Source: a virus | IMG/VR virus record: IMGVR_UViG_3300035670_000714 | Span: 1 to 35,906 of that record | Strand: one strand, 5' to 3' | Length of the DNA: 35,906 nt | Part shown: positions 8,364 through 25,424 of the stretch, in pieces | How the letters are laid out: the number at the start of each line of letters is the position of its first letter | Numbering within the stretch: the first letter of the stretch is position 1 | The notes under the pieces: generated by a model | Seen by the model: the letters and a program-made list of their open reading frames with translations, nothing else | Databases searched by the model: none | What the model was told of the DNA's origin: nothing | Made by a program: the position numbers and the translations under genes

Positions 8364-8498
8364 ATGGAAGACAAAGACTTAATGCGCCAAGCGGCAGCAA
8401 TCATGGGAAGTAAGGGAGGCAACAAAACAGCTAAGAGGGGTAAAGAATACTATAGGACAATAGGCAAGCAAGGCGCAAAAAAAAGATGGGGCAAATAG
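8364..8498 (+). CDS. Small KGG-type basic protein, 44 residues
   Basis: The frame starts at ATG 8364, ten bases after the previous stop, and encodes MEDKDLMRQAAAIMGSKGGN, then a Lys/Gly-rich part with EYYRTIGKQG and the ending KKRWGK. The KGG...YY..IG..G..KRWGK pattern resembles short KGG-repeat (GsiB-like) proteins that are common as small genes in bacteria and mobile elements. Its biochemical function is unknown. The stop codon lies in the loop of the operon terminator. Confidence 0.65.
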   Translation: MEDKDLMRQAAAIMGSKGGNKTAKRGKEYYRTIGKQGAKKRWGK

Positions 8499-8512
8499 CC
8501 TCATCTTTTTTT
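8483..8512 (+). terminator. Terminator of the two-gene plus-strand operon
   Basis: AAGATGGGGC pairs with GCCTCATCTT around a five-base loop, followed by a T-run; A-runs on the other side make it potentially bidirectional. The stop codon of the 8364 gene is in the loop. Confidence 0.88.
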
Positions 8513-8565
8513 GTGTCGGGAAGGAAATAAACACCGACATACAACATCATTTTTAATTATATCAT

Positions 8566-8601
8566 AAAAAAGCAAAGCCGCCAAACTTGGTGTTGACGGC
8601 T
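8566..8601 (-). terminator. Terminator of the ATPase operon
   Basis: On the minus strand AGCCGTCAA pairs with TTGGCGGCT (one G-U) and is followed by TTGC and six Ts. It lies about 220 bases beyond the stop of the ATPase gene. Confidence 0.65.
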
Positions 8602-8817
8602 CGCTATTCTGTGCAACTATAAGTCTCTCGCTATGCGGAGAACGCGGGATAACTTCTTAATATAACTTCAAGCCAATCCCGCTCCGCTTCACGCTCCTTT
8701 TTTTTGGACAAACCGGCATAAGCCGGTCAAGCTCCAAATTAACAGAGCTTGCGCTTATCAAGATAGAACATGAAGCCATATCAGCCGGTATCTACGGACA
8801 CCGGCCGGATGCCTGAC
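8602..8817 (-). other. Structured 3' region after the ATPase gene
   Basis: No convincing gene is seen here. The stretch carries several short hairpins, including CCGGC/GCCGG around an ATAA loop near 8712-8725, and CCGGT/ACCGG near 8784-8804. It could be a structured 3' untranslated region, a small RNA, or the remnant of a gene. Together with 8499-8565, where TGTCGG/CCGACA forms another hairpin, it fills the gap between the convergent operons. Confidence 0.4.
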
Positions 8818-19947: not shown

Positions 19948-20094
19948 GCGCCGTTTTGCGTCGTAAGCGCAGCCCAATCGTTCATGCCACTTGACGGGTC
20001 TTTTATGTTAAGGGGGTGAATGATTGGGCTGCGCTTTTTGGCGTAGCCAAAAGCGCATAAACGGCGCACTATTATTGCCCGTATTTTCGGGCAA
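19948..20094. repeat. Nested inverted repeats in the attP region
   Basis: A 19-base arm (19966-19984) pairs with 20017-20035 at 18 of 19 positions. An outer pair GCGCCGTTTTGCG (19948-19960) and CGCATAAACGGCGC (20054-20067) encloses it. Two more perfect hairpins follow, TTTTGGC/GCCAAAA (20036-20052) and TTGCCCG/CGGGCAA (20075-20094). The combined structure could be a transcribed structured RNA or a cruciform used in replication or integration. Confidence 0.7.
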
Positions 20095-20097
20095 ATT

Positions 20098-20146
20098 ATC
20101 AGAGGGGTGCTCTTGGCTGATGAAGTTCGGAAATAATCAGAGGGGT
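20098..20146 (+). repeat. Direct repeat ATCAGAGGGGT, two copies
   Basis: The 11-base sequence occurs at 20098-20108 and 20136-20146, 38 bases apart, between the inverted repeats and the left arm-type site. It may be a protein-binding site. Confidence 0.45.
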
Positions 20147-20339: not shown

Positions 20340-20395
20340 GACTTAAAATCCCTTGGGCCTTTGTGCCCGTGCCGGTTCGATTCCGGCCCTAGGCA
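20340..20395 (+). other. attP core: 3' part of a tRNA-Leu(UAA) gene
   Basis: The sequence runs from an anticodon loop CTTAAAA (anticodon TAA at 20344-20346) through a type II variable arm (GGGC/GCCC), a perfect T arm GCCGG-TTCGATT-CCGGC (20371-20387), and the acceptor strand CCTAGGC plus A73. The matching 5' half is missing: upstream only GCCT agrees with the acceptor. This is how an attP looks when integration into a host tRNA-Leu rebuilds the gene. The integrase is next door. No functional tRNA is encoded here. Confidence 0.88.
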
Positions 20396-20407
20396 TTAAT
20401 AAAAACA

Positions 20408-20473: not shown

Positions 20474-21427
20474 TTACATGTTCCTAAAACCCAATAATTG
20501 GCAATACTTTTGCGTCACGGATAAATTGGAGTGTCCAAGACGATACTGGATTTCCACTATAATCATTCCGGAATTAGCCCACTTAGAAGCTCTGCGGTGG
20601 CGCAAGCTGTGCCAAGCCCATCTTCTTTGGTTAAGTTTTAAAACCTTATCTTCAAGAAAGCGGGGATAAGCGTTCCATTCGGTGAATACCTTGCCTTTAC
20701 CGGCTAAACCCTTTAAGCATTCCGGCATAGGGATTCGCCTAGGCACTCTATTGGAGTTTTTGCTTTTGCGCGTATAGAGAGTTAAGAGATTGCCGTCAAC
20801 ATCTTCCCATGTCAAGCTTACCGCTTCATTAATTCTGGCGGCCGTCTCATCGACAAAATCTATTAAGAGCCTTTGGTTGTCGGTGCATTCCTTTTTAACC
20901 GCTTCCACATCCTTGTCAGGGGGAATATACTTAAGCCTGATATCAATAGGAAGAAACTGGATATTAAGTTTAGGAATTTCCAAATCATAAATACTGTTTC
21001 CCCAATTAAGAAGACTTTTGACCGATCTCAAGAGTGAATTAGCCTTATAATTGCTCTTTCCTCTCGTCTTCAACCTTTTAGCTTCCTTAATAATTAAGCC
21101 GTGAATCATTTCCTTACTGACTTCTGTTGCGTCTATCTCGCCCCATTCACTTAACATTAATTTGAAATATCGCCTATTTTCCTTATAATAATGGCCTGAC
21201 TGATAGGTCTGGATATAATCAAGCCGTTTATTCATCAACTCTTTTAATCCCATTTTGCGGGTCGGCCTTATCTGTTCTTTTTCAATCCTTTCGATTTCCG
21301 CCCTTTCCGCTTTTTCAGCTTCTTTTTTTGTCGGATATATGGCCTTAGAGCAATACTTCTCTCCATAATGCGAACCTGCGAACCTCCACTTTAAGCCTCT
21401 TTTGAGCTTCCTTGAATAGCATCCCAT
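20474..21427 (-). CDS. int: Tyrosine site-specific integrase
   Basis: The 317-residue recombinase has an N-terminal arm-binding beta domain (about residues 1-45), a core-binding helical domain (about 58-150) and a catalytic domain. The catalytic residues are in place: R198 in ARINE, a Lys near 221, H273-R276 in HSLRH, H299 in LGHS and nucleophile Y308 in QKYCQ. It should recombine attP with a host tRNA-Leu gene. The tRNA-derived core at 20340-20395 and the duplicated arm-type repeats are where this enzyme would act. Its start overlaps the preceding small gene by 37 bases. Confidence 0.96.
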   Translation of the reverse strand: MGCYSRKLKRGLKWRFAGSHYGEKYCSKAIYPTKKEAEKAERAEIERIEKEQIRPTRKMGLKELMNKRLDYIQTYQSGHYYKENRRYFKLMLSEWGEIDATEVSKEMIHGLIIKEAKRLKTRGKSNYKANSLLRSVKSLLNWGNSIYDLEIPKLNIQFLPIDIRLKYIPPDKDVEAVKKECTDNQRLLIDFVDETAARINEAVSLTWEDVDGNLLTLYTRKSKNSNRVPRRIPMPECLKGLAGKGKVFTEWNAYPRFLEDKVLKLNQRRWAWHSLRHRRASKWANSGMIIVEIQYRLGHSNLSVTQKYCQLLGFRNM

Positions 21428-23620: not shown

Positions 23621-23639
23621 AATTTTTAGCGGCTTAATA

Positions 23640-23659
23640 TTTCTGCTGATTAGCAGAAA
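23640..23659. other. Perfect eight-pair hairpin
   Basis: TTTCTGCT-GATT-AGCAGAAA lies just upstream of the chosen start of the 23342 gene. With its A-run on the plus-strand 3' side it could be a weak terminator or leader hairpin. Confidence 0.5.
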
Positions 23660-23800
23660 AAACAAGCCAATTTAATCTTAATAAACTATCGGCATAGCTA
23701 CTGCCGGACATGGCGTTTTAGCCGGATGTCTACCGCTTAACAATAACCTCTGGCGGTTCAGAAGTTATGTCGATAATTTGTTAATGAGTTAGATTGTCTA

Positions 23801-23830
23801 AAGGCTTTTAAAGGCTTTTAAAGGCTTTTT
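23801..23830. repeat. Three tandem ten-base repeats AAGGCTTTTA
   Basis: The unit occurs three times without gaps, the last ending TTTTT. A related unit, TTTTAGAGGC, is repeated at 24055-24074. The ten-base period matches one helical turn. Confidence 0.75.
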
Positions 23831-23847
23831 TGTTAATGAATTTCTGA

Positions 23848-24054: not shown

Positions 24055-24074
24055 TTTTAGAGGCTTTTAGAGGC
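24055..24074. repeat. Two tandem ten-base repeats TTTTAGAGGC
   Basis: Two copies lie at the 3' end of the lysozyme gene and carry its stop codon. They are related to the AAGGCTTTTA repeats at 23801-23830. Confidence 0.65.
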
Positions 24075-24630
24075 TCAATATCTTTCCACAAGTCCATTCT
24101 TTGAATCCTCTTTGCTTCAATATTCTGAAAGCTTCATTTGTGTTGCATTTCCAGTCGTAAGCGCATTGGTCGCTTACTTCTCTATGCCAATAACTATTTA
24201 TTTGGAAAATTCCCCTGTCTACTGATTTAATAGAATCTGAATTGTAGTATTTGGCCTTCGGATTAAGCTGTTTATTTTCGCAATCTAGCAATTCGAAAAC
24301 TTTATTGCTGTCTATCCCATGCTTAGGCGCTTCCTCGGCTATGTAAGCTTTAATCTCTTCTTCTAATGTCAATTGTGAGGCTCTAGGAGTCACGGAGACG
24401 GTGATTTCGTCATAATACAGGTCTGCGGTCATTTCTTGGCTTTCTGCCGTCCTAGGGGCTTCTACGGGCTTAATTTCGGTTTTAAAGCTTGCCAAAGCGT
24501 TATTCAGGCCGAAAAAGTAGCAGATAAAGGCCATAACTGTAATAATCATGGCTAATTCGTGCTTTTGTCTTTTTAATGTGTAATGTTTTCTCAATGATTT
24601 TGAAATCTTGATTTTAGTTTGTTTTTTCAT
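24067..24630 (-). CDS. Membrane-anchored lysozyme / transglycosylase-like endolysin
   Basis: The 187-residue protein starts with a basic segment and a transmembrane or signal-anchor helix at about residues 27-47, followed by a Pro/Ala-rich linker. The C-terminal domain (about 95-187) has a lysozyme-like core: LLDCENKQLNPKA with candidate catalytic E118, then DRGIFQINSYWH and four Cys that could form disulfides. It should cut peptidoglycan from the outer face of the membrane. With its own signal anchor it may be held inactive until release, as SAR endolysins are. It is first after the tRNA-like RNA and promoter. Confidence 0.78.
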   Translation of the reverse strand: MKKQTKIKISKSLRKHYTLKRQKHELAMIITVMAFICYFFGLNNALASFKTEIKPVEAPRTAESQEMTADLYYDEITVSVTPRASQLTLEEEIKAYIAEEAPKHGIDSNKVFELLDCENKQLNPKAKYYNSDSIKSVDRGIFQINSYWHREVSDQCAYDWKCNTNEAFRILKQRGFKEWTCGKILSL

Positions 24631-24830: not shown

Positions 24831-24836
24831 ATTGAG

Positions 24837-24922: not shown

Positions 24923-24951
24923 TTGCCAAATTTATTTTTGTTTGTTATCAT
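24923..24951 (+). promoter_or_regulatory. Promoter for the structured leader and small-gene operon
   Basis: TTGCCA (24923-24928) and TATCAT (24946-24951) are 17 bases apart. Transcription would start near 24958 and continue through the pseudoknot-rich leader into the genes from 25263. Confidence 0.75.
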
Positions 24952-24956
24952 ATAAA

Positions 24957-25215
24957 TACAACTAGCCAAAGCATGGTGAGACAAAAAGCTTCGGCAATCA
25001 ATAGGTCTTGCTCACCATGCACCTGTTGAAAGTCGGAGCTTTTTGTTTAAAGCGAGATATAATCGGCTACCTCGCAAAACGCCGATTACGCAAGTCAATT
25101 AATAACTGGCTTAGACCGGGAGCAGTAAATCCCGTCCCTCATTGAAGGGCTTAACAAGACTGCAGGCTCATACTTCCTTAACTGGAAGTTTAAAACTATG
25201 AGTGCCGGGGATACT
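24957..25215 (+). ncRNA. Structured leader RNA with interleaved helices (putative pseudoknots)
   Basis: Helix A (GCATGGTGAG 24971-24980 with CTCACCATGC 25011-25020, ten perfect pairs) interleaves with helix B (24981-24993 with 25034-25046, 13 pairs with one G-U). Next, GCGAG/CTCGC (25052-25056, 25071-25075) interleaves with TAATCGGC/GCCGATTA (25060-25067, 25081-25088), with loops of three, three and five bases, a textbook H-type pseudoknot with an A-rich third loop. CGGGA/TCCCG encloses GCAGT, which can pair with ACTGC at 25159. Further hairpins are CCCT/AGGG and ACTTCC/GGAAGT. I match it to no known RNA family. Confidence 0.62.
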
Positions 25216-25220
25216 TATTT

Positions 25221-25262
25221 AATAAGTTAAATAAGTTAAATAAGTTTAATAAGTTAAATAAG
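25221..25262 (+). repeat. Tandem nine-base repeat AATAAGTTA ending at a start codon
   Basis: Four full copies (one ends TTT) and a final AATAAG lead without a gap into the ATG at 25263. The repeat is A/U-rich and unstructured and could serve as a ribosome-loading site after the structured leader. Confidence 0.85.
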
Positions 25263-25424
25263 ATGAACTATGGCGGGAAAGATTACAAAAGAGTCTATGT
25301 GAAGGTTATAGGCATAAGAAAAGAGCATTTTGATTTAATTGAAAAGATAAGAGGAAAGAAAAGTAAGGCCGGAAAATTAGATGAAATAATTGAATTTTAT
25401 AAAAAAAATAAAAAAATGAAATGA
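25263..25424 (+). CDS. Small basic protein, ribbon-helix-helix-like, 53 residues
   Basis: ATG 25263 opens MNYGGKDYKRVYVKVIGIRK, then a helix and the pattern KAGKLDEIIEFYKK. One strand and two helices could form a ribbon-helix-helix or similar small DNA-binding unit. It is the first gene of the operon behind the structured leader and could be its regulator. Its stop overlaps the next ATG (ATGA). Confidence 0.6.
   Translation: MNYGGKDYKRVYVKVIGIRKEHFDLIEKIRGKKSKAGKLDEIIEFYKKNKKMK

Follow-up and report, generated by a model that had tools for sequence, protein, structure and literature searches.

A Phage Leader RNA with a 5' Tail Complementary to Its Predicted Terminator Loop Suggests a Class of Promoter-Proximal Transcription Attenuators

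We propose, with confidence only somewhat above even, that the first ~90 nucleotides (nt) of a phage leader form a promoter-proximal transcription attenuator and that this attenuator is one of a sequence-divergent class of phage elements. The leader lies in a 35.9-kb virus record, IMGVR_UViG_3300035670_000714, which we analyzed over its whole length (the window). The analysis supports the architecture of the element, its recurrence in other phages, a higher frequency than expected from shuffled tails, and, in calculated folds, the succession in which its two structures come to be favored.

Results

Genomic setting of the leader

The window carries genes for terminase, ERF, integrase, a Holliday junction resolvase-like protein, and a VirD4-like protein. 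The leader is flanked by a leftward lysozyme-like gene (24067-24630) and a rightward short operon whose first gene encodes a 53-amino-acid (aa) protein (Table 1). A preliminary description of this sequence had proposed a plus-strand leader with a small-gene operon behind it, and both are supported here. Terminase relatives at 39-59% identity were retrieved, and among bacterial genomes relatives were in Bacteroidota and several Patescibacteria bins, with a Paceibacterota bin (51%) among the closest. A likely attP at 20353-20396 corresponds to the 3' half of a tRNA-Leu and adjoins the integrase gene (20474-21427). Its 86% match to the 3' end of tRNA-Leu(TAA) in a patescibacterial genome (L245) suggests a temperate phage of Patescibacteria.

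Other features were seen in the intergenic regions of the window. The DnaA-box-like sequence TTATCCACA occurs on either strand in four of them (24836, about 8000, 16405, and 20300), the site at 24836 being upstream of the studied leader. Intergenic stretches at 19951-20100, 8401-8800, 23626-23775, and 16501-16650 fold far better than shuffled sequences, with the best z score, -7.4, at 19951. Three tandem copies of AAAGGCTTTT are present at 23800-23835.

Table 1. Features of the leader and its surroundings (positions in the window)
Feature	Coordinates	Strand	Basis or remark
Putative sigma-70-type promoter, TTGCCA-17-TATCAT, extended -10 TG	24923-24951	+	Consensus match
A5', 5'-terminal tail, GCATGGTGAG	24971-24980	+	Unique in the window except for its partner A3'
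B5', 5' arm of the terminator-like hairpin, contains the A-tract AAAAA	24979-24995	+	Folding
S2 5' strand, inner helix, TCAATAGGT	24998-25006	+	Folding; comparison with G435
A3', loop segment, CTCACCATGC, complement of A5'	25011-25020	+	Folding; eight-element comparison
S2 3' strand, ACCTGTTGA	25021-25029	+	TCAA..GTTGA common to G435
B3', 3' arm of the terminator-like hairpin	25032-25048	+	Includes the U-tract UUUUUGUUU (25040-25048)
H-type pseudoknot	25052-25088	+	First stem, 25052-25056/25071-25075; second stem, 25060-25067/25081-25088
10-nt motif, GCTTAACAAG	25149-25158	+	Identical in the homologous G435 leader
AT-rich 9-nt tandem repeats (ATAAGTTAA), directly 5' of the 53-aa gene	25213-25262	+	Comparable stretch in the corresponding position of G435
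First gene of the small operon, 53-aa protein	25263-25424	+	49% identical to the first gene behind the G435 element

Two alternative structures in the first 90 nt

Compared with shuffled sequences, the whole 259-nt leader folded with a z score of -5.05. The strong signal is confined to the first ~90 nt after the putative promoter (24958-25048; z of -6.17, 0 of 200 shuffles as good), which is more than chance. The remainder, 25049-25215, exceeded chance only weakly (z of -2.15, 6 of 200 shuffles as good), and the signal in the stretch of ~260 bases described earlier is concentrated in its first 90 nt.

All of the helices named in the preliminary description were found in place by folding and a pairing check. 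Helix A joins the tail A5' to A3' with 10 Watson-Crick pairs, and helix B joins its two arms with 17 pairs, of which 3 are G-U. The inner helix, S2, which was absent from that description, has 9 pairs. The hairpin at 24979-25048 is built from helix B, a two-by-two internal loop, S2, and a 14-nt loop, with the U-tract at its end, and 10 of the 14 bases in the loop can pair perfectly with the tail at the 5' end of the predicted transcript. A3' is separated from the 5' strand of S2 by 4 nt and from its 3' strand by 0 nt, and the same spacing is found in the homologous G435 element described below. On geometric grounds, helix A and full-length helix B cannot coexist because of zero-length linkers and would be alternatives rather than parts of one fold. 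The initial picture of a single intricate RNA of ~260 nt is therefore not supported, and what had been an aside, that helix B may be a terminator and helix A its competitor, is the best-supported reading.

The hairpin has a predicted stability of -28.5 kcal/mol in the window and is directly followed by the U-tract UUUUUGUUU. This is the arrangement of an intrinsic terminator, it recurs in the other elements (weakest in G435b), and we infer that the hairpin would act as one. When successive prefixes of the leader were folded, tail pairing was best from the emergence of the loop until about 25034, and the hairpin won afterwards. Tail pairing first and a terminator later is the layout of a leader attenuator. 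The terminator also sits between the predicted promoter and the first gene, and the earlier helix is incompatible with it in the window, although 3 of the 8 elements have longer linkers. An 18-codon open reading frame (ORF) starts at 24973 without a Shine-Dalgarno sequence. Attenuation by a leader peptide was considered and rejected: this ORF has no counterpart, and the tails of the other seven elements contain no ATG.

The predicted transcription start site is near 24958. As a consensus match, the promoter claimed ahead of the leader is of a kind as common in shuffled sequence (7 promoter-like matches found in the region versus 6.9 expected), but the better promoters in front of the related elements make it more credible. 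It is placed relative to the tail as are the near-consensus promoters of the seven other elements.

The leader beyond the core

The H-type pseudoknot downstream of the hairpin has loops of 3, 3, and 5 nt (AAAAC), and a third interleaving sets CGGGA/TCCCG (25117-25121/25130-25134) against GCAGT/ACTGC (25122-25126/25159-25163) as two 5-pair helices. No other G+C-rich pseudoknot of this type is present in the window, but about 22 comparable motifs occur in 4.28 Mb of strand from relatives and other loci, with overlapping registers counted. Both features exist with the helices and loops first described for them, but neither has a recognized counterpart in the homologous G435 leader. The pseudoknot is probably incidental, and the third interleaving may be incidental as well.

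Searches with Rfam covariance models at gathering and permissive thresholds gave no plausible family for the leader, and a search for tRNA or tmRNA found none in it, in agreement with the preliminary description. None of the elements searched matched Rfam. By blastn against phages and plasmids we obtained chance matches and no homologue. Exact-pattern searches returned unrelated matches only for the pseudoknot 16-mer in viral contigs, nothing for a loop-region 20-mer in viral contigs, and nothing for a 22-mer in genome contigs. A single-sequence covariance model identified no homologue either in ~1 Mb of sequence from relatives or in 380 Patescibacteria genomes, its single match in these genomes being a generic terminator. 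No relatives were reached through the 658-aa neighbor or the integrase, and the 53-aa protein led to G435 only.

A large ornate RNA of ~260 nt, such as a ribozyme or riboswitch, would account for the interleaved helices and the pseudoknot, all of which exist. However, the leader has no Rfam match, folds weakly past 25048, and contains a pseudoknot that the G435 leader does not recognizably share, and the elements lack the core of conserved sequence that would be required for a ligand pocket or an active site. We regard this explanation as extremely unlikely.

A homologous element with a different tail

A descriptor modeled on the window, with the tail, its complement in the loop, S2, B, and the U-tract as components, was run over the retrieved sequence. 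The four best matches of the calibrated descriptor came from four different phages with scores of 72 to 81, versus control maxima of 54.5 in reversed and 49 in shuffled sequence. Matches in G435, G436, and G021 have the same architecture and scores in this range. Four further matches were set aside: L151 (integron attC-like) and L163 and L164 (inverted repeats, not phage leaders) were judged unrelated, and L062, which has no gene downstream in that direction, was judged spurious.

The G435 match (L184/L191/L202) precedes the 53-aa gene related to that of the window, with similar AT repeats and an identical GCTTAACAAG between element and gene. By this context the G435 element is homologous to that of the window, and it is the only one of the other elements for which this can be demonstrated. 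Its tail is CCCCGCCAA, compared to GCATGGTGAG in the window, yet it is still perfectly complementary to its own loop: every tail/loop pair differs, pairing is kept, and the linkers are unchanged. A check for compensatory changes between homologues thus favors helix A. The AT-rich repeats in front of the 53-aa gene are a possible operator for the small protein. The two ends of the G435 record (IMGVR_UViG_3300028864_000011) carry the same 127-nt repeat without a difference (L191 1-127 and L192 16024-16150), so the record is probably a complete genome.

The same design in eight elements of five phages

The same design in unrelated letters was found in eight elements of five related phages (window, G435a, G435b, G436a, G436b, G436c, G021, and G026), which are not alignable by sequence. 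Relative to the predicted start site, the tail begins at -1 to +25 nt in all eight, and most of the other elements have promoters nearer the consensus than that of the window, such as the TTGACA-17-TATAAT of G021. Matches to DnaD-like or replication-initiation families were obtained for the genes that follow G021, G436a, and G436b. The G021 promoter is immediately preceded by a box similar to TTATCCACA (L066, about 4760, minus strand). Two of the G436 elements (L194, 12284-12323 and 12887-12926) share a near-identical promoter stretch, TTGACAAAAyAAGGTGAAArGGTAAGATGAAA, which looks duplicated, while the two attenuators differ completely.

Prefix folding of the seven elements other than G435b favored tail pairing first, and the hairpin took over before the U-tract. 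At full length, most elements have a terminator more stable by roughly 5 to 20 kcal/mol than their tail-paired state, so that in the absence of a trigger the majority of transcripts might just end there. G435b has a short U-tract. In the window, G435a, G436a, G436b, and G021, the tail and the hairpin are joined by too short a linker for both structures to form, but the linker is long enough for coexistence in G435b, G436c, and G026, and mutual exclusion is therefore not universal. What the elements keep would thus be complementarity and not one pseudoknot fold.

A gene begins 9 to 14 nt past the U-tract in G436a, G436b, G436c, G021, and G026 and farther away in the window, G435a, and G435b. 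The short distance in 5 of the 8 elements, where the stretch up to the ATG is A-rich with no evident Shine-Dalgarno sequence, speaks for a 5' untranslated structure acting on translation or mRNA stability. Its hairpin would protect the 5' end or the start region, and its U-tract would not terminate transcription but pair with the A-rich sequence ahead of the ATG. We think that this is unlikely, as the gene start is ~215 nt downstream in the window and G435a, and a long hairpin running straight into a U-tract is the hallmark of an intrinsic terminator.

Enrichment of tail/loop matches behind phage promoters

In an independent search, promoters with at least 10 of 12 consensus bases were followed to a hairpin of -12 kcal/mol or lower with a U-tract and then to a tail/loop match of at least 8 nt. 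Eight of the 20 promoter-proximal hairpins of the window, G435, G436, G021, and G026 had a match, versus 0.40 expected from shuffled tails (Poisson P [≥8 given 0.40] = 1.1e-8), in five phages that were grouped for having matches. For this reason, the figure for all virus records is fairer: 9 of 59 versus 0.70 expected (P = 5.9e-8), with L062 among the nine. Bacterial prophage loci gave 1 of 71 (1.15 expected), the chromosomes of Patescibacteria, the host phylum, gave 0 of 60 (1.0 expected), and the isolated phages lambda, P4, 11b, Versailles, and P12002L gave 0 of 7 hairpins.

These counts bear on the simplest explanation, an ordinary and perhaps bidirectional terminator with a chance match to the tail. 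Helix B does have both an A-tract and a U-tract, the covariance model gives a score on the minus strand too, and the only match of that model in 380 genomes is a generic terminator. Nevertheless, five phages have far more tail/loop matches than expected, and terminators placed directly after promoters and before early genes would still need explaining, which makes this reading very unlikely.

Discussion

In the attenuator that we propose, RNA polymerase would first make the 10-nt tail and then the long hairpin with its U-tract, the loop of which is the exact complement of the tail. The emerging loop would pair at once with the tail, giving an antiterminator state in which S2 and B are open. 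This early helix would delay the terminator. Synthesis of the 3' arm would then allow the hairpin to displace the tail pairing, and transcription would stop after ~90 nt; across the elements, polymerase would either escape into the genes or stop after about 60 to 120 nt. A lasting tail-loop state would let polymerase pass, and the balance, which elongation speed, a protein, or another RNA might tip, would set readthrough into the downstream genes. Promoter use, termination, and an increase of readthrough through tail pairing are inferred. The class would keep a design and not a sequence, in double-stranded DNA phages with some relatives in Patescibacteria, and often before replication-initiation genes.

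The design probably represents a type of phage gene switch not described before, with partial likenesses to known systems. In the leaders of pT181, amino-acid operons, and T-box genes, an early helix and a terminator hairpin exclude each other, as is proposed here. The usual antiterminators sequester an arm of the terminator, whereas the early helix here uses the loop of the terminator together with the extreme 5' end. In most copies A3' abuts the 3' strand of S2 (0 nt), and there are several different copies per phage. The HK022 put RNA is likewise structured and located close to the 5' ends of early phage transcripts. It brings about processive antitermination by acting on RNA polymerase through conserved stem-loops, and the present elements share no such stem-loop sequence. 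In the CI RNA immunity of satellite phage P4 and in C4-type antisense RNAs, self-complementary segments also lie in one phage leader and control is by premature termination. P4 immunity uses a processed RNA acting in trans, whereas the elements here have an intrinsic terminator that carries one pairing segment in its loop, and they have no Rfam match.

The main alternative is that the released RNA of ~90 nt may itself be the product, as a candidate self-recognizing RNA for each promoter, similar to the P4 immunity RNA or IsrK. It would display both the loop A3' and the tail A5' and would pair in trans with these same segments in nascent leaders, forcing or preventing termination. A promoter, a structured RNA of ~60 to 120 nt, and a terminator are the layout of a small-RNA gene. 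In their own genomes, the tail and loop 8- to 10-mers have no exact partners, or almost none, besides each other, which is consistent with such a role without proving it, and sequences that vary between elements while complementarity stays are what self-specific pairing predicts. There is a prophage precedent in IsrK of Gifsy-1, where one leader yields a short terminated RNA and the readthrough mRNA on which it acts (PMC4825925). The isrK-orf45-anrP leader resembles these elements in its prophage promoter, short terminated RNA, downstream readthrough, and alternative structures; however, IsrK acts on orf45 translation, pairs with orf45 and not through a 5' tail and terminator loop, and is a single enterobacterial locus (PMC4825925). 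Since pairing of the same segments in cis is kinetically favored, we consider action in trans possible but rather unlikely. It is also doubtful, though conceivable, that these phages have an RNA control layer of wider reach, in which private-sequence attenuators at several early promoters release ~90-nt RNAs acting back in trans on the nascent leaders of the same promoter. Such a layer would provide promoter-specific, RNA-only control of copy number or superinfection at the replication genes with no protein repressor.

If the attenuator mechanism that we propose is true, a group of uncultivated phages would control early and replication genes by a sequence-independent RNA rule, a 5' tail complementary to the terminator loop, which is invisible to sequence-based family searches. 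The rule is easily searched for elsewhere and easily tested and, if true, would offer a compact design for orthogonal transcription switches.
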